Positions 17,826 through 30,717 of a DNA stretch of 64,000 bases are shown here, piece by piece (within the stretch, counting starts at the first letter, position 1; each line of letters opens with the position of its first letter). The notes beneath the pieces were generated by a model, which saw nothing but the letters and a program-made list of their open reading frames with translations, ran no database searches and was not told where the DNA came from. The stretch covers positions 6,635,754 through 6,699,753 of the forward strand of contig OX422191.1 of assembly GCA_949130485.1 (NCBI GenBank). The letters run 5' to 3'. The translations under genes and the position numbers were made by a program. The DNA is from Agelas oroides (lineage: Eukaryota; Porifera; Demospongiae; Agelasida; Agelasidae).

Positions 17826-18118
17826 CATATCAAATATGAAGGCGTTTTACTTAGAACCAAACTACAAGTTATTCAAAACATCAAGCTTTAAATGGCTGGT
17901 TTAGAAAACATTAAATTCATGACATCAATCTCTGAATGTAAAGAAACATCATTGAGCATGAATATCTAGTTTATCACAACATCAAGCCATGAATGACAAA
18001 CAGTAAAAGGCGAGGTGCAATGTTTTTTTGGAGTTGGCTATTGCAAAGTTGAACGTTGCTAGCTAGGGTGTTAGATCTGGACTAAATTTGTATAGTCTGG
18101 TAGTCATAGTAGTATGTT

Positions 18119-19904
18119 ATGGAGGCAGATTGGTTCTCCTTGATTATTCTTTTGCTCGGTTTCATGCAGTGGGTTACTGCCCAACAAGGTGTCTGCCCTC
18201 CATGGTTCATCCTGGACAACAAAACTAGCACTGGATGCTCTTGCACAAGTTTGCACACCACAGAAGTCATGTGTGGCCCTGACTTCCCATTATTGCACTT
18301 TGGGCTCTGTATGACATACAACAGTACAAATGAGACTACAGAATATGGACTTTGTCCATACATTGGACACTATAAAACTACTGCTGTTGACAATCTTTAT
18401 ATTCTGCTGCCAAGCAATGCATCTTGACTTAATGAGATCATGTGTGGGCCGCTAAATCGAGAAGGCACACTGTGTGGGAAGTGTAAAGATGGATATGGCA
18501 TTGCACTATACTCTTACACTCTGGAATGCAGTAAGTGCTGGGGACATGGGTATGGATGGGTCCTGTATTATTTCCTGGAACTTTTCCCAATAACTGTGAT
18601 GTACTTCATTGTGGTGATCTTCCACATAAGAGCCACTTCCTCCCCACTGAGTGCCCTTGTATTTATGAGTCATTTTGTTGTGTATACAATACGACTGAAT
18701 GTACCCTTGCACATGTACATCGAGAATGAAATCACAGGATTTCTGTATGTTGCAGTGAAAGTGCTACTTGTATTGTGTGGCATATGGAGCTTAGACTTTT
18801 TTCATTCTGTTATTCCACCATTTTGTGTAAGCAGCAACATCAAGACTGTTCATGCACTTGCGCTTGAGTATCTAGTGGCATTTTTTTCTCATTTTATTTA
18901 CTTATGCATGTATAAAACTCCACGACAACAATTTTAAACCTGTTGTTTGGTTATGGAAGCCATTTCACAGACATTTTGCTCACTTCAGGAGGAGATGGGA
19001 TTCCAAAGCATCAATAGTCAATGCCTTCACAACGTTTCTGGTTATCTCTTTCTCAAAAATTTTGTTTGTATCCTTCACACTGCTCTACCCCTTCTATATT
19101 CGCTATAATTATGGTGATATCCCAACAAAGTTGGTTTTATACTATGACCCAACAGTGGAATTCCATACACAGGAGTATTCCATATTTGCAGCTATAGCAG
19201 TTTGTGTTTTGGTAGCATTTATTATTTGTCCAACAGTTACTCTCATTCTGTACCCCACAAGACTCTTCAGAAGGTGTGTCTCATGTTGTGGGTTTCGCAG
19301 ATGGCATGCTCTGCACATCTTCGTTGAATCATTTCAGGGACAGTACAAGGATGGAACCAATGGTACTTGGGACTTCAGGACGGTTTCTGCTTCATTCCTC
19401 ATTCTCAGGATACTGATACTGGCAACATTTCTAAATCACAGGCTTGGGTTTGCAGCTAGAGAACTACAATGTGCATTAATGGTATGTGCTGCTTGCTTTT
19501 ATGCTGTTGTGCGGCCATACAGACGAAACTATTTGAATAATGTTGATTTTCTAATCTTAGCTTTGCTGGAGGTTTTAACATTTGAATTGCTTTCTGCGAC
19601 ATACCACACGCCTAAAACAACCTTCATATACTATTGTCTGGCTACTGTACTGCTGTTAGGTGCTCCACACATGATTCTGATCTTATACATGTGTTATGTG
19701 TTGGTGAAAAACGCAGGTGTCACTCAGTGCCTAAAAGGAAAGTGCAAAACTTTGAAAAGCTGCATGCTGGCTACCAGACATGTAACTCATGAAACAGATG
19801 TGGAGGCTGAGTCTGATACTGGATCTCTCCCAGACCAACTGATAAATCCAGAGAAGTACAAACCACTGTTACGCACTGCAGCTGCTGAGCCGAGTGTTCG
19901 TTAG
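18119..19904 (+). pseudogene. membrane-protein family copy B, nonsense and frameshift
   Basis: The copy starts MEADWFSLIILLLGF and has the CPPWFILDN ectodomain start. An in-frame TGA interrupts SNAS*LNE at about 18424. The frame resumes with MCGPLNREGTLCGKCKDGYG and runs to about 18895, where a short deletion in the VAFYPIFL segment shifts it. The rest is readable at 19062-19904 through YPTRLFRRCVSCCGFRRWH and a tail with INPEKYKPLL. The usual YTYGSI end is lost, with an early stop at SVR. It is closest to the intact minus-strand gene at 44541 in signal peptide and several segments. Confidence 0.85.
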
Positions 19905-20050: not shown

Positions 20051-20245
20051 GGGTCGTACAGAAATTAGTGTAAAAATAGAGTTTAAACCTAGAGTTACTC
20101 TAGGGGAAACTTTAAATGAGCAAAACCTAGAGTAACTCATGGGACAACTTTAAACCAGCACAACCTTGATGTACTCTAGGGGGAATTTTAAACCAATGTA
20201 AAGAGTGTAAAAATCCCAGGATATATGCATTACATTGCTATTTAT
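20051..20245 (+). repeat. left terminal inverted repeat with iterated GAGTWACTC boxes
   Basis: The unit contains three degenerate repeats spaced about 40-45 bp, each with a TAGAGTTACTCTAGG-like box followed by a TTTAAA motif. The same boxes appear in reverse at 27386-27573. Regular palindromic boxes near termini are plausible transposase binding sites. Confidence 0.75.
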
Positions 20246-20247
20246 AT

Positions 20248-20627
20248 GGGACAATTTTAAACCACTTCAGGATGAATGGCTTACGAAGGGGCACACTCAC
20301 ACAAATGAACCCAGGATTAATGCACTGCATTGCTACTTATATGGGACAATTTTAAACCACTTCAGGATGAATGGCTTACGAAGGGGCACACTCACACAAA
20401 TGAACCCAGGATTAATGCACTGCATTGCTACTTATATGGGACAATTTTAAACCACTTCAGGATGGATGGCTTACGAAGGGGCACACTCACACAAATGAAC
20501 CCAGGATTAATGCACTATGTTGCTACTTATATGGGACAATTTTAAACCACTTCAGGATGGATGGCTTACGAAGGGGCACACTCACACAAATGAACCCAGG
20601 ATTAATGCACTATGTTATGAAGGGACG
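20248..20627 (+). repeat. 95-bp tandem repeat, four units, left subterminal
   Basis: Units begin at 20248, 20343, 20438 and 20533 with GGGACAATTTTAAACCACTT and are nearly identical. Matching units in reverse orientation occupy about 27160-27385 (about two and a half copies). The short open frames across this array are by-products of the repeat. Confidence 0.95.
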
Positions 20628-20674
20628 TACTCGATTTATGGGCATAGTCACAAAATTTACCTCGATCAGATTGC

Positions 20675-20745
20675 AGTGACACTGTTGCCAAGTGTTTAAA
20701 GCATTTGACTGTGGACCAAAAGGTCCCAGCTGTGAATCCCACCTG
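20675..20745 (+). other. possible tRNA-like (SINE-type) remnant
   Basis: TTGCCAAGTGTTTA resembles an A box, and AGCTGTGAATCCC about 40 bases later resembles a B box (GGTTCGAATCC). Between them is a CTGTGGACCAAAAG anticodon-arm-like stretch. The acceptor ends pair only partly, so this is at best a decayed tRNA-derived sequence inside the transposon. Confidence 0.3.
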
Positions 20746-21196
20746 TCACTTCGCAGATAGTTTTTTGTTTGCACCGCAGGTAAGTTGTCTTTTTCATCCC
20801 TGGGATATCAGCCTTTGCCTGAAAGTAAGTATTATACATGTTCAGCTTTTAACTGTTCTTGTGCATAAATTATGGCAAATTTACACCTAAAACAACAGTC
20901 TGGATGTCTTAAGCTCCAACAGACTTTTACATGTATTGCTGACCACTTCAGGAAGGTTTTAGCTACACACTTAGCCTCACTACTAAACTGTTACAACACT
21001 ACGTAACGTACTGAACCTGTACTGTACCTCCAGCTAAATTCTCGGTAGGCTCGCTGTTACCTTTCACCTTTGACCCCAGCATGGGTGGAGCTCATGCGTT
21101 GTATGCAAAGATGGATGGAGGCGGAGCTGACTGCGTGTGAATGGCGCCTTAAGCGTACGTGGCGCCGGCGGGATTTCTGCGACCTAGCTGTGTAAG

Positions 21197-24100
21197 ATGA
21201 AGTTGTTGAAGGCGCTAATCCTGATCTGTTTGCTTGGGGGTGACCGTGGTCCTGATCCTGCTTCTCTAGAGGCATTCCCCTTAGCAGCTCGTGGATGTGA
21301 TGGGAGAGCAAACATTCTATGTGTGCCAGCTGCCTACCCTGTCCTTCTCTATCGTGGACACTTTTCTGTTGAAAGTACTCTACTGGCAGGAGTTCTACTT
21401 ACGATGATTGGACTGCTTAGGCACTCCACAGACCTTGGAAGGCCTATATCAACAGTTTTGATTGAGATGACTTCAAAATGTAGAGGAACAAGGTTTGCCT
21501 ATAAAGTCATACTACTGTTACACTACTAGCTACTCAAGTTGTTCACTGTAGGATCCCTGCAGTTGTGTCAGCATGCTGTTCTGTGGTCAGAAACAGAGTA
21601 ATGAGCTTCAGCACATGGTAAGACTATGCCATTGGTGTTGTTGATCTGTTAGTTATTGTGATATGTGTTCCATATGCAGGCAGGGTATCTATGCCACGTA
21701 CAGAAGAAATGTTGATGGAATATTGACTCTAATGGGTTCACTGTCAGATGAATCACTTTCTCCATCTACGAACCCAGATGGTCACTCAGTTGTGCATGTC
21801 AACCTTAAGTGTCCGTCAGGAGTTATGCAACCGATCACTCTCAAGTACAGTTGCAATGTTCTGAGCGTAGTATTGTTCAAAGAGGTTGAGAAGATTACTG
21901 GCGTCCCGACATCCTTGCAAATGCTCACTTATGGAATGCATTTTTTGCGGCCAGATGTCCCACTCAACCATTATCAACTGCAGGATGGATGTATCATCAA
22001 TCTCTCGGTTAGGGGTGTTGGTGGTGCAGGATCTGATACAGGTATCTCCATCAGAGTTAGTATAAATTATTGTAATTAATATGGTGTATATTGTGGCACA
22101 CACTGTGATTCTGCTACAATCAGAATCAGATGATGAGGGAGATGTCTCTGATGAATGTGAGTCATGTGGGGAAAGGGCAGATGTCTACTGTGTGGACTGC
22201 CATTCTTCACGATGCCACCTTTGCAATGAACAATGGCATAAGCACCCTAAGAGAAAGCACCACCAAACCAAGGTGAACAGTTGCACAAAGTCACATAAGA
22301 CCCATATTAAAAGATTGTGCTGTGTTTAACACAATAATGTCATATATTAACCGCATCAAGCTTTCAGAGTGCCCAAAGACATCACCCCAAATCCTGGGTA
22401 GCTGCAGGTGTTATCAATGAATCATCAGTCACATTAACAGTTCTGGGATAATTTTTGCAAGGTCTATCAGCTGTATACTTTCCATGCCACGTGCCACATT
22501 GCCGAGGTGTGGAAGATATATTAGCATCTGGACTACACCCTTTATGTACATGCATACAGATGTACTCTAACTATATACACCATGAATACTTCGCCTGTGG
22601 TACCATTTTAGTAAACTATTCCTTAACACAATCTAGCAATTTCCATCCTTTGAGTGTCTGGTGGACCCCACCAGGACTACTGTGGCTGTTTGTCACCTAA
22701 ATATTATTCAGTTAGCACCACCTGAGTCTTGAGATCAAAGTGGGGAATGGTTGCGGGCTTTTAGCATTGGTGTTGTGAAGATGGCCAGACCTGGACTGTG
22801 GGCTGTGGACTGGAACATGGACTGGAAGCAGGTCTTAATAATGGACTCCTATTGTTGTAGAGTTCATCAGGGGTCAAAAGATGCATCTACTCAGCAGCAA
22901 ATTTCCAATGTTCCTTGATGTTGCCAGCTTTTATAGTCATATCCTGACAAGTGTGTTCAATTACATTTTCCAGGTGGTCAAGCAACAAGGCATTGACAGT
23001 ACAGAAGATCAGGATGATTATGGTATGGATGATTACAATATTTTCAACTCGCCGTCAGTGGAAGAGTCATTCCAGCAGGCCACACTTATCGCTACGTTGG
23101 CTGAAAAGTTTGGAATGACTTCTTTTAAACCATTTCAGAAGAATGTAATCAGTGCAACTTTAGACGGAAGGGATACACTTGTTATTCATCCTACTGGTAG
23201 TGGTAAAAGTCTCTGTTTCCAGTTTCCCCCGGTTTACCAGAACAAGAAAGCAATTGTAGTAACTCCAACCATTAGTCTAATGCAAGACCAAGTGCATGCA
23301 CTGAATAGCAAAGGAATTCCATGCGTACTTGTGGGGTCTGCACAGGTTGATAAGCAAGTTGAAATGCATGCGCTAGAACCAGACAGTAAAGAACTACTTA
23401 TCTTTGTTACACCGGAGTGGATGACGAAGCCCGCAAATCAGGCCAAATTGCATACCCTTGTACGTGCCAATCAGTTGTCACTCATTGCAATTGATGAGGC
23501 TCACTTGTTTACTGAATGGAGCGAATTTCGCACTGCTTTCAGTGATCTGAGAAATATCAAATCACATTTTCCATCCATCCCAATAATGTGTTTGACAGCT
23601 ACAGCAACTCCAGCTGTGGAGGAAGATATAAAGCTTCTGCTTAGAAACCCATTTGTGCAAAAGATGTCCATGAATCGCCCAAATGTTACCCTAAATGTAG
23701 AGGAGCTAAAAGAAGACAAATCACTGAACCATGCCGAACAGTTTGCAAAAAGGGCCTCTGAGATATGTGGTTCAAGTTCTTCAATAGTTTACACAGACTT
23801 TATTGCTGACATTGGGCCCATTGTGAGTGCCCTACAGCAAGTGGGAGTTGAAGCAGTTGGATATCATGGTGAAATGGATGCTCCATCTAGGCAGGAGTCC
23901 TACCTCAAATGGAAGTCTGGGCAAGTACAAACAATTGTGGCAACTAAGGCTTTTGGAATGGGCATAGACAAGCCAGACATTAGACATGTCATCAGAAGCG
24001 GTGTCCCTGAAAGCATTCTTTCTTGGGCACAGGAACTTGGCAGAGCTGGCCGTGATGGCCAGCAGGCGTGTGCAACAATTTTGTACAGAAGATCAGATAT

Positions 24101-26862
24101 TTCACATGCAAATGCTTGGATTCTTAACAATCTGTCCAATAAAGAGAGGTGCAGGCGTATACTATCTAAGATTTGTTAATGCAAATCTTGCAGGGATGTG
24201 CCGAAGAAAACTTCTTCTCGAGATGTTTGGTGAGGAGAGCACTTCCTCCACTTACACAGAAGACTGTTGTGATGTTTGTATGTATGAAGAACACATTCAC
24301 TCTGATTTCAAAGAAGAGCTAAAGGTCCTTATAGATGCTGTTGATCATCTTGGAGGCATGGGTGAGGTTAAAATAGCTGAGTGGATCAGAGGGTCAAAAA
24401 TAGCATGGACAAATGGTTTCGATAAGAATTGTCTCTCATATGGCAATCATAAAGGTAAAGATATGAACTTTTGGAGGACATTCATCAGGCAATGCAATGT
24501 AATCTCATTGGTACAACTGGAACTCAAGTCCATGATCAAAGGTAGTGGTCTCTATACTGTGAATGGTGTGTACTATGTCACACCAAAAGGCAGAGAAGCA
24601 TTAGTTGAGTCCGAGTCATTGCTGTTGCCTGATAAAAGTACAGATGGGAAGGAGACCAGCAGTGCAACTGCACAGGGTGGTGTGTCTTTGGAGAACCTAC
24701 AAGCTAAGAAGAAGAGACTTGGAAAGGGTAGCAACATTTTAACTACTGTTAGAAAGCTTCTTTCTGAATCGGAAAACTGGTTTAATATAGAGAATAAAAG
24801 CAACTACCAATATCCTGGTGTACTACCTAAACCTTGCTTTCAGCAACTTTTTTACACAGCAAATCTGTCAAGCCTTGCACAGAGTTGTGAAGACCCACAC
24901 TTCATCTGGAAGGATATACAGCTATTGAAAGGGCAACTGAATAGAGATCGCTTGATCTCTGTTGAAATACATGGAAAGACTGAGGAAGTATACTATAGAT
25001 CTGCACCTTGTTTGGGGGTGAAGATCTGTCCTCGGGGAGGATGTAATCATGTTGTGCCAATTCGTGACAAAAGAAACTGTCCTGAGCACAATATTGCCCT
25101 CGAGAAAATGTATGACTGCCCTGTTGTGTTTGTATACATGTATCCAAAGAGCAGTGCAGATAGTAGGCGTTGGTTTGGAGGAATAGTTCGATGCCAGAAG
25201 GCTCCAGCAGGAAATTTACACAATCATGAAATTCATGCTCCCAATAGAATTGCCCAGTGCATCAAAGAAAAGATCACTGATGCAATATCTGCTAATCCAG
25301 CTTTAACACCTTCAGAGATAGCTTGCGGAAAAGGATTGGGATTTATCCCATCTGCTGTTGATGGTGCTAGCAGTCACACAGGGAAGGTGTCTCAAGAGAT
25401 AAGGAAGACAAAGCAAAGAAAGGGTCTTATGGATAAGGACTGGTCGCCAATGAACTTTGAAGAGGTAGCTGATACAATTGATGAAGAAGACAATGAAATA
25501 AGTGGAGATGACAGTGAAAAGCTGAAAAAGTACAAACGTCATGGAAGACCATACTTAGTGGCATTTGGACTCGAGGATGGAATCAAGTTCATTTTTACCA
25601 TGTCACCTATCATGACCAAAGTTGCCAGTGAGGCTGATTTTATTCAATGTGACATTACCTATGATAGCTGCAAAGACTATCCATATATATTCAATGTAGT
25701 AGCCTTTGACAAGGTTACAATGGAGTGGCTGGTTGTTGCTAGGCTTAGATTAGACAAACAAGACTCTTTTGCATATGGACTCGCTTTTAAGAAGTTATTT
25801 GATAAGTGTAAAAGTAGTTGTGGTGATTTTGAACTTGGATCGACATTAATGGGTGTAGTCACAGACTGGTCTGATGCAGAAATCAATGGCCTGAGGATGG
25901 CTGTTGGCAAGGATACAGCAGAGAAATTGCTCAAAGGCTGCAAAGTGCATTGGCAACGCTCATGTCAACGTGTTGCTGACAAGGTGGCTAAATCAAAAGA
26001 CAGAAAAAGGGAGAAATTTATCTTTCTGAAGATTTCGTCACAAATTCAAAAATTAGACAGTTCTCTAGGTATTGTTGCTTGTTTTGAAACACTGTGTGGC
26101 GTTTGTTCTGTCAAGCAGCTTCTTGACATTTTACCTACAGTTTGTTCAGTCAGTGATGCAGTGTTTGTAGATACAAGCTGTGACTGGTCATCTGCAAAAC
26201 ACTGGGCACAGTGGTGGGCTAGGTGCGATCATTTGAAGATGCTCTCAAAATCATTTTCTATGATGGAAGACAAAATATGGAAACAGTGTCCCACTACCAC
26301 AAATGCCGTGGAAAGGAGAAACAAGGATTGCAAGGGTGATGTACCACAATCCCTAAAATTAGCCATGATCAAAGTATACAAGTTGGACAAGGTGGCATGC
26401 TTAAAACACATTTCAGCAGAAGAAGGTGCTGGCTTGTCATACAGATCAAGAACAGAAGAAGCAAGAAGAATGTTAGCTGAGAAAAGGCAGAAGCAGAGAA
26501 TGAAATCAGTTCCTGACAAGTCATCACAGTTTGGCCCACCTGATCGCTCTGATAACTTTGTGACAGGTCCCAGCACATCACGAAAGAGGGCTGACAAATC
26601 ACCTCAGTTGGATAATGCCCCCAAGCGTCTGGCAGTATGTGTAGACAACAGCACAGTACAATACATCCCTAATAACCATCCCGAAATCCTTGGAAAGCGT
26701 GCAAGAATGAGATTCGAGAGTGAGTCAGGCAAAGAGGAATGGTATGAGGGAGTGATATCCTCGTATAATGGGCTCACTGGCAAATTTGGACTCTACTTTC
26801 CCTGTGATGGAAAGACTGAAGATGCATCGTTTGATGATGAGGACATGGAACTAATTGATTAG
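21197..26862 (+). CDS. Ubl-B-box-RecQ helicase-MULE transposase fusion (spliced)
   Basis: Six exons keep one frame: 21197-21492, 21552-21617, 21680-22041, 22124-22272, 22974-24156 and 24194-26862 (1574 aa; the first two are least certain). Exon 3 encodes a ubiquitin-like fold ending LSVRGVGGAGSD. Exon 4 encodes a B-box (CESCGERADVYCVDC...CHLC...H). Exon 5 is a RecQ core: PTGSGKS near 364, IDEAH near 464, LTATATP, KAFGMGIDKPD and LGRAGRDGQ near 645. Exon 6 continues with the RecQ zinc motif (MCRRKLLLEMFGE...CCDVC) and a winged-helix region. Next come a CPRGGC/NHEIH zinc-type DNA-binding segment and a Mutator-like DDE core: DITYD near 1172, TDWSDAE near 1242, CKVHW and ERRNKDC near 1392. A Tudor-like end follows (WYEGVISSYNG). 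The inferred role is transposition with built-in unwinding. A separate helicase gene is less likely, because the frames join precisely at GT-AG sites. Confidence 0.8.
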
Positions 26863-26897
26863 CTACACTCAACTTAATCACCATGCATGGACACTTT

Positions 26898-27095
26898 CAA
26901 TTCCTTATTGATTTTCTTGATATTGCAACTGATCAACATTTTATAGCATCAATGAATAATTATATCATTCTACATAATCATATCATCCTGTACAATTCCT
27001 TATTGATTTTCTTGATATTGCAACTGATCAACATTTGTATAGCATCAATGAATAATTATATCATTCTGCATAATCATATCATCCTGTACATTACG
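26898..27095 (+). repeat. 95-bp direct repeat, two units
   Basis: CAATTCCTTATTGATTTTC begins at 26898 and again at 26993, each followed by the same text to ATATCATCCTGTACA. It lies between the stop codon and the right inverted repeat of the transposon. The sequence is unrelated to the 95-bp subterminal unit despite the same period. Confidence 0.85.
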
Positions 27096-27154
27096 AGTCC
27101 AATTTACGACAAAGTTCACCTTTGAGGTCACACAGACTGAGTAAGACTTCTTTA

Positions 27155-27573
27155 ATATCCAGTGGTTTAAAATTGTGCCATATAAGTAGCAATGCAGTGC
27201 ATTATACCAGGGTTCATTTGTGTGAGTGTGCCCCTTCGTAAGCCATTCATCCTGAAGTGGTTTAAAATTGTCCCATATAAGTAGCAATGCAGTGCATTAT
27301 ACCAGGGTTCATTTGTGTGAGTGTGCCCCTTCGTAAGCCATTCATCCTGAAGTGGTTTAAAATTGTGCCATATAAGTAGCAATGTTATGCATATATCCTG
27401 GGATTTTTACACTCTTTACATTGGTTTAAAATTCCCCCTAGAGTACATCAAGCAGCAAGGTTGTGCTGGTTTAAAATTGCCCCATGAGTTACTCTAGGTT
27501 TTGCTCATTTAAAGTTTCCCCTAGAGTAACTCTAGGCTCAAAACCCCATTTTAAACTAACTTCTACATGACCC
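27155..27573 (-). repeat. right terminal inverted repeat
   Basis: This is the reverse complement of the left end: about two and a half 95-bp units to about 27385, then the box-bearing outer part to 27573. It ends ATGACCC. Divergence from the left end is visible near the tip, while the inner part is close. Confidence 0.88.
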
Positions 27574-28339
27574 AAGGCGTGCTGCTCGTACAGCTGCAGA
27601 GGTTGTCTCGCCTAGCCACGCCCAGATTATAGCCCATAGAGTCTAGCTCAACCTTGACTGAACAGCGCTAGCTGCACAAGTTAGAGGTCTGCACTGTGTA
27701 CAATGACCATCCCATTCCATTTTCCATTCCACCTTTCCATATTCCACCGTTCCATTCCATATTCCAGTTCAGCGATTAGAGACATCCGCCACTGGTTGCT
27801 CAGGCTTGCCCCACAATTCAACGCATTCTGCTAGTGTAAATGAACCATTTAAACAAGTTATGTAGAGTAAACCATCAATAATTGGACACCAGCGATAATC
27901 GGACGCTCGTACACGGAGACTAAGCCACGCAGATACTCGGTTATGCCATGGAAATTAAGGCGGAGTCTACAATTGTTCTTGATTCATGTACTTCAGAAAT
28001 TGAGTTTCGCCCGTATGAAGGCGTTGTATCTCGGGTACCACACAACGCATAAAGACGAGACTTGCACCGTTACGTTGGTAAGGACCTGTAGATTCCAATG
28101 ATGCCAGTATTGTTGGCCTATTACGTGGCTTGGGGTGTCCACGGCGAAAAAATACGTAAATCCATTGTCCAATCATTGATGCAGCAATCCACTCAATTTT
28201 CGTCAACACCCCTCAGCGCCCAAGGCAGCTATGGTGACGAAGATCAGGCTTGCAGCAGCAGGGTGCATTTCACAAAGGGAACTCCTGTTTATGTTCTGTG
28301 TGTGTATTGCTTTTTGCTGTTGTTTTCTGTCTGCTCAGT
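27574..28339. other. noncoding spacer with ATTCC-rich tract
   Basis: The stretch 27706-27770 is a degenerate run of CCATTCCA/CATATTCCA units. The remainder shows no gene that I can support. Open frames here are short and lack any recognisable motif. Confidence 0.5.
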
Positions 28340-30717
28340 ATTGGGCGAGTTACAGAATGAATGAACAAAGACCACCCCTATTTTTGTAGACTTCAGAGTA
28401 TACTCCAGTCTTTCTCACTTTCACAAGTCGTACATTCCCCTACCCACATAAACTCTAATGGGCATGCCTCTCTAATTGATTTGGCTCTTGTGTCAAGCAA
28501 AACACAGCTTCTTGACTGCTCAGTAATTCCACCTCTTGCAAATGCGGATCACAATGGCCTTGAACTGTTCTTCAAATGGAAGCACTGTGATAAACAAGTA
28601 CGTGTAACACCAAGAACAATTTGGAGGTATAAGGATGCAGACTACAGAAAAGCATGTCAGATGATTGATGAAACAAACTGGGATGACCTCCTCCATATGA
28701 AGATGATATTGACCGCTCTGCCACCAACTGGCACAACAGGTTCATGGAAATCATGTCTACTTGCATTCCACAACAGTCCCTAAAACGTAGGAGGAATGTG
28801 CCATGGCTGAAAAAGAACATTACTCGACACATAAAAATGTGAAATGCCGCATTTCAAGCTGCTAGGAGATCTGCTAAGCCTGCACAATACTCCAAAAATT
28901 CAGGAGACTACGCAACAAAGTTGTGAAAATGATTCGGAATGCCAAGTCATCCTACTTCAAAAATCTAAATCCTAGAAACAAAAAACAATTTTGGAAAGCT
29001 GTAAAATACCTCAACTAACAACAGTCAATCATCCCAACACTCCACCATCACGGTACTGCTGCTGAATCTGACTCAGAGAAGGCCAGTCTGCTCAACGAGT
29101 GTTTCTCAGCCTGCTTCAACAGAGACACTCCTCCTCTCTCATTTGTAAATGATGACAATCACACTGTGCATTTCAGTCCATGCCCAGATGAGCTCCTCTG
29201 TAGCTACAGCTGAGGAAGTTATTATTCTTATAATGTCCCTTGACCCATCAAAAGCTAATGGGCCTGATGGAATCTCAGCTCAAATGCTTAAAGGTACAGC
29301 ATACAGCATTGCTTCATCTCTCACCAAACTTTTCAATATCTCCATTCACCAAGGTTGCTTCCCTGAGTGCTGGAAAACTTCTTCTGTTGTTCCCATTCCT
29401 AAATCTGCAAATCCCAGTGAAGCTACTGACTACAGACCCATTTCCTTACTCTCAGTAGTAAGCAAAATGTTGGAGCGACATTTTCACCAGTATGTCACCA
29501 AACATCTCAATGAATACCACCCACTATCCAACAAACAATGGGGTTTCCAGTCTGGCAAGTCAACAGTTACAGCTCTCCTCTCTGTTACTCATGATTGGTT
29601 TCAAGCACTCGAGGCTGGGCAGGAAGTGTGTTCCATCTTTTCTGATCTCAGAAAGGCCTTTGACTCGGTTCCTCATCGGCCACTGGTGGATAAATTAGCC
29701 AACCTTGGACTTAATGCTCATGCCCTTTCTTGGATCACCAGCTATCTAACTAACCGGAAGCAACATGTGGTTGTGGGTGGAGAATCATCCCTGGACACAC
29801 CTGTTCTCTCTGGTGTACCCCAGGGCTCTGTGTTGGGTCCCCTACTATTTCTGGTCTACATTGATGATGTTTCTGACGTCCTCCTTTCAGACGGAAGCAC
29901 ACTCAATATTTATGCAGATGACATGCTGCTGTACAAACCCATAAAATCAATTGAAGACATTCACCACCTGCAAATAGACATTGATCGCATCAGTGGTTGG
30001 GTGGACTGCAATAACTTAACACTGATCAATCCTAACAAGTGCAAGACAATGGTAATCTCACGAAAACGGAACTCGGTCAAACCACATGCATAGTTTACCT
30101 TGAATAGCAGTCCACTTGAGCAGGTAGAGACCTTCAAGTACTTAGGACTTCTCCTCTCATCAGACCTTTCATGGTCTTCACATATTGATTTTATATGTGC
30201 CAAGGCCAGAAAACTGATTGGCCTGCTGTACAGGAGATTCTATGGAAATGTCAACAACCGCAGCTTACTCGAATTATACAGTGTTCTTGTTCGTCCTCAT
30301 CTTGAATATGCCGCCCCCATCTGGGACCCGCACTTCATTAAAGATACTAACAAACTTGAAAGTGTTCAAAGGTTTGCTTTAAAAATGTGTTTGAAACAAT
30401 GGGACCTAGGATACCAGGACCTTCTTGACCTGTCTCAATTCCCTACCCTTGAGAATCATAGGTTATATTTAAAGCTCTGTACACTTTATAAAATTATACA
30501 CGGTTACTTCTACTTCCCACCAATGTATTTGTACCCCAAGTAAGTAGACATAGTCACTCCTTACCTTTAATACATGAACCTCGTGCACATACTAATGCTT
30601 TTCAGTCATCCTTTGTACCAAGCACTGTCTCTGTTTGGAATCACTTACCTCACGAAGCACTTACAGCACACTCCATCAATTCCTTTAAATCACTTGTTGC
30701 ACCACTGTTTTTGTAAA
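28340..30717 (+). pseudogene. 5'-truncated APE-type LINE (jockey/CR1-like), decayed
   Basis: The first frame (28361-28783) carries the end of an AP-type endonuclease, with the ADHNGLEL motif and then the linker. A frameshift near 28690 and a stop near 28840 follow. The RT lies at 29149-30093 with ANGPDGIS, DYRPISLLSVVSKMLE, SDLRKAFDSV, LSGVPQGSVLGPLLF and IYADDM. A stop follows, and the C-terminal part (30100-30543) continues with TFKYLGLLLSSDLSW and RPHLEYAAPIWDPH. A further stop precedes the final SFKSLVAPLFL. The 5' half of the endonuclease is missing. The element cannot be active. Confidence 0.88.

Follow-up and report, generated by a model that had tools for sequence, protein, structure and literature searches.

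What purpose a RecQ helicase serves in certain DDE transposons is the question raised by a 64,000-nucleotide stretch of the sponge Agelas oroides (contig OX422191.1, positions 6,635,754 to 6,699,753, forward strand; hereafter the window, to whose first letter all positions refer). Comparison of inverted arms located a DNA transposon at 20052-27572, bounded by long inverted ends. Its reading frame, joined over introns of 82 and 701 nt and over a 37-nt stretch, gave 1,436 residues in which a ubiquitin-like domain (Ubl) is followed by a B-box, a RecQ helicase (core, zinc region and RQC domain), a zinc-like module, a DDE domain and a Tudor-like end. We consider it fairly probable that this is a cut-and-paste transposon that has long inverted ends, makes 9-bp target duplications and encodes one Ubl-GlyGly/B-box/WRN-like RecQ/DDE/Tudor-like protein of about 1,450 residues whose DDE part is of the type of Mutator-like elements (MULE) and IS256, and in which the Ubl serves as a ubiquitin-type fusion partner. 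Helicase-carrying DDE transposons are already known; a Ubl whose ending is of cleavage type and strictly conserved seems to be without precedent.

The genome (259 Mb, 141 contigs) was searched for further copies and yielded 23 matches to 650 bp of the left end of the element, eight loci being retrieved for inspection. By its introns, a non-long-terminal-repeat element and the ubiquitin/B-box domains, the sequence itself would suggest a eukaryotic host, probably an invertebrate. Two further long copies, L009 (7,103 bp) and L010 (7,290 bp), showed pairwise identities of 99.4-99.5% over aligned bases with the window copy and with each other, and matched it in the identity and order of the domains. 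This family also includes L011 and L012, which are short derivatives retaining both ends, and a one-ended piece (L013). Perfect 9-bp target duplications of varied sequence, GGCTTTGCC and CGTTGATAC, neither of them TTAA, flank L011 and L012, that is, two of the five two-ended copies of the family. The element is shown to have been mobile in the recent past; in its workings it resembles a cut-and-paste transposon with an integral RecQ helicase. An earlier note, made from the letters of the window, had described a mobile element with a multi-domain protein between inverted repeats and had made its case depend on other copies linking these domains between such repeats; L009 and L010 are two of them.

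The whole-length protein search, which relies on shared 5-residue words, gave 1,634 passing candidates out of 7,978 scored, and the best 120 of these 1,634 were examined. Among them, 31 unnamed proteins (P0001-P0031) are fusions, whole or in pieces, and the others bear domains of RecQ type, in many cases under the names BLM, WRN or plant RecQ. Searches with the DDE part and with a DDE profile retrieved 42 proteins and 58 proteins (E up to 1), respectively. The whole span from Ubl to Tudor lies in one predicted protein in P0006 and in P0008, which presumably lack introns. Alignment A1 contained 17 sequences, including 16 of the 31 relatives from the whole-length search, and those holding both the RecQ and the DDE parts (14 of the 17) were taken as fusion sequences. 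In a tree of 23 RecQ sequences a 100/100 branch split these 14 from nine other RecQ proteins (12 had been chosen and three were dropped since the cutting motif did not match), which fits a single, old capture of RecQ among the 14 fusions, the tree being unrooted. In addition, RecQ distances among the 14 sequences track their DDE distances (Mantel r 0.918, 0/10,000). Because P0006 and P0008 span all the parts in one predicted protein, and because RecQ and DDE diverged together, the comparison of predicted proteins shows that the fusion is real and its parts co-inherited, which bears out the placing of RecQ and transposase in one protein by the earlier note. No confirmed relatives were found in viral contigs (0 of 4 pattern matches) or in genome contigs (0 of 27).

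The fusion of the window and 177 proteins, 178 sequences in all, were scanned, and 14 of them had a B-box signature within the first 400 residues. Gly-Gly stands between Ubl and B-box in 14 of 14 sequences, or in 15 of 15 with one sequence of a second family described below; these 15 are the sequences reaching the Ubl/B-box junction, some of them starting inside the Ubl. The Ubl part varies strongly in them, only G.P and GG being invariant. The ubiquitin fold and its C-terminal register were seen in P0030, and the Ubl of the window is placed by alignment only. The alignment of P0030 to ubiquitin stops exactly at the C-terminal GG of ubiquitin, and its model runs strand-strand-helix-strand-helix-strand up to residue 85, with a low-confidence stretch at residues 87-90, where the GG run starts. 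The di-glycine, invariant among the sequences compared, is the strongest new point of the analysis and speaks for processing or conjugation, which sharpens the previous guess of a host-control module.

The RecQ part is a RecQ helicase with helicase core, zinc region and RQC domain, and its core scored 219 bits against WRN, 207 against bacterial RecQ, 199 against RECQ1 and 190 against BLM in the PDB. Also, RecQ chains took up the match list of a structure search with the model of P0030. The DDE part looks MULE/IS256-like by fold and at noise level by profile. Pfam MULE stayed short of its curated cut-off among the members compared and gave no match in the window's own protein. The DDE profile found nothing useful among PDB sequences, the best E value (0.15) being that of an antibody chain. 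Catalytic residues were counted on alignment A2, with 35 rows (the window and 34 of 56 relatives); P0020, which in A1 has lost D2 and the C..H region, is not among these rows. Model md9b0bbea301d matched bracovirus protein O92526 in a viral-structure search (566 columns, E 8.9e-12), which may be a transposase residing in the genome of a wasp virus.

From the six-exon frame of the earlier note the Ubl-to-Tudor architecture was retained and the last intron (24157-24193) was rejected. As L009 and L010 read through this stretch, where 17 bp are missing from the window copy, the site is a lesion, namely a deletion that shifts the frame of the window copy alone. At other points of the coding part, 337 bp are deleted in L009 and 47 bp in L010, and no stop was found among their codons comparable with the window frame. 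Three of the eight loci retrieved (L014-L016) form a second family with ends related to those of the window element. L014 and L015 keep Ubl and B-box joined to the part from residue 1157 on (C-terminal DDE/Tudor). Since the loss takes in RecQ together with the C..H pair and both catalytic Asp, both loci are read as internal deletions and the idea that this family is a RecQ-less ancestor was rejected. L016 retains only C-terminal pieces, and no RecQ match was present in the 9.9-kb stretches examined of five further second-family regions (L017-L021). Target duplications of this family were absent at L014 and L015; L016 has an 8-bp match near its guessed ends.

In the mechanism that we propose, a host de-ubiquitinase or Ubl protease would cut the Ubl after Gly-Gly, as a ubiquitin-type fusion partner, and release the B-box-RecQ-transposase. 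The DDE part would then cut and join the transposon ends, and the RecQ part would open hairpins and forks at the long inverted ends, which are rich in repeats, and feed 3' ends into repair of the donor-site gap. For targeting, the Tudor-like part may recognize histone methylation; we infer this role and that of the helicase. Cleavage is proposed by analogy with ubiquitin-ribosomal protein fusions: in the ubiquitin-eS31 and ubiquitin-eL40 precursors, such fusions being among the PDB matches, a ubiquitin fold likewise ends in Gly-Gly before another domain, whereas here the Ubl is diverged, its partner is a transposon protein and the cleavage is putative. Going further, and as a tentative suggestion only, the helicase-transposase may be a ubiquitin-type fusion precursor which host de-ubiquitinases mature, dose or shield, and whose freed Ubl may disturb ubiquitin/SUMO silencing in the host.

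Several observations weigh against this proposal. The target duplication was sought at all three long copies (window, L009 and L010) and none was found. No intact copy was seen, each long copy having its own frame-breaking deletion, and the silent to changing codons (5:13 in L009, 4:10 in L010) indicate no protein constraint among these recent copies. With regard to the DDE fold, Foldseek at E up to 0.001 gave only RecQ/WRN chains (3 of 728 matches), the DDE matches started at E 2.7e-3 with retroviral integrases, and ISCth4 became the best DDE fold match only after re-alignment. Pfam MULE matched weakly in 3 of 17 members (best 0.02) and in 1 of 21 (best 0.01), and the unrelated family Methyltransf_23 scored similarly (3 of 21, best 0.024). 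Finally, from Gly-Gly to the first B-box Cys there are 16 residues in the window and 2-3 in 13 relatives, and because of this spacing the Gly-Gly could be a linker. In one rival explanation the Ubl is not cut off and, alone for ubiquitin receptors or jointly with the B-box, provides docking, Gly-Gly being a mere flexible linker. The longer linker of the window and of the second family suits this explanation, but we regard it as unlikely in view of a Gly-Gly that is invariant while the rest of the Ubl varies. Far less credible is a dead relic or a RecQ pseudogene lying by chance beside a transposase, which we hold to be very improbable: all three long copies are indeed frame-broken, but they are nearly identical at different loci, and the fused relatives and the matched RecQ/DDE divergence reject a chance juxtaposition.

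The ubiquitin-type fusion could also belong to an element of a lineage already described. The earlier note knew no named superfamily with this architecture, but in the available excerpts of the respective papers RecQ is reported for Academ (PMC3627910) and for KolobokH, whose transposase carries it (PMC9587614), and target duplications of 9-10 bp for AcademH (PMC10045372). Membership in the AcademH lineage of the Academ superfamily, with Ubl-B-box and Tudor as local additions, is a serious possibility, if short of an even chance. Both AcademH features examined are present, a RecQ-type helicase encoded with the DDE transposase and duplications of 9 bp, against 9 or 10 bp in the excerpts on AcademH, which occurs in animals and fungi, to judge from the title of a paper cited there. 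Nevertheless, those excerpts, compared by description and not by sequence, mention no Ubl-GG, B-box or Tudor, and no Academ protein was found among the best 120 of the 1,634 candidates, a weak and indirect point as shared 5-residue words were needed. KolobokH was excluded although the GG...CC ends of the window element fit the Kolobok rule 5'-RR...YY-3': the excerpts place its RecQ downstream of the transposase (upstream here), give TTAA as the Kolobok duplication instead of varied 9 bp, and report KolobokH from fungi only. Alternatively, a MULE lineage might have taken up RecQ and ubiquitin-type genes from a host and retained them, a possibility towards which we do not lean. The ISCth4 match, what looks like a similar DDE fold (with its C..H motif and the long insertion between D2 and E), the long inverted ends and Pfam Transposase_mut (4 of 21 members, best 0.0021; 1 of 17, 0.014) agree with it, as do the 9-bp duplications, which MuDr-type elements share according to excerpts of PMC3627910. 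The Pfam MULE result separates the window element from that family. To our knowledge, MULE/IS256 elements do not include RecQ, Ubl or B-box.

Features of the element in the window.
Feature	Position	Strand	Details
Left terminal inverted repeat	20052..20611	+	begins GGTC; 95-bp tandem sub-repeats from ~20215
Conserved upstream open reading frame or first exon (MKLLKAL...GCDGRANIL)	21197..21526	+	51-56% amino acid identity to second family, best E 1.7e-10
Ubiquitin-like domain exon	21732..22041	+	start is an ATG inside the open frame; GVGGAG 22014-22031 contains the di-glycine
B-box zinc finger exon	22124..22272	+	Cys-His signature 22156-22245
RecQ helicase core	22974..24156	+	PTGSGKS 23190-23210, DEAH 23493-23504, motif VI 24030-24059
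37-nt stretch, taken for an intron in the earlier note	24157..24193	+	17-bp frameshifting deletion at ~24168, window copy only
RecQ zinc region and RQC winged-helix domain	24194..24630	+	CRR 24199, CCDVC 24265-24279
Cys/His-rich, zinc-finger-like module before DDE	25006..25240	+	named by eye from alignment; no Pfam match
DDE transposase domain	25252..26418	+	D 25651, D 25864, C..H 25939-25950, E 26311
Tudor/Spindlin-like C-terminal domain and stop codon	26674..26862	+	
Right terminal inverted repeat	27161..27572	-	ends GACC; contains 95-bp sub-repeats

The upstream frame, MKLLKALILICLLGGDRGPDPASLEA...GCDGRANIL, has a hydrophobic start, and the portion of it displayed for L009 and L010 is the same as in the window; the motif after that start presumably bears a loose resemblance to 2A peptides. 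Between the stop codon and the right arm there is a direct repeat of ~95 bp (26898-27090, with matches over 44 and 56 nt), and L009 lacks 95 bp in the corresponding region. The sequence TCGTACAG of the left end (20053-20062) reappears just beyond the right end (27584-27594), perhaps by chance, perhaps as a trace of an earlier end. On the left side the element is adjoined by large open frames of a gene rich in hydrophobic stretches (18113-19904, + strand), and near its right end lie reverse transcriptase frames of a non-long-terminal-repeat retrotransposon (29149-30543, + strand), both named by eye.

As helicase and transposase form one chain whose parts diverged together, a role of the helicase in transposition is testable with a single protein. 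Open-licence literature, searched with queries mostly lacking ubiquitin, gave no report of a transposase depending on host ubiquitin-fusion processing, and we know of no earlier DNA transposon of this kind. If the proposed reading is true, the element of A. oroides would be the first DNA transposon whose transposase depends on the ubiquitin-fusion processing of its host.
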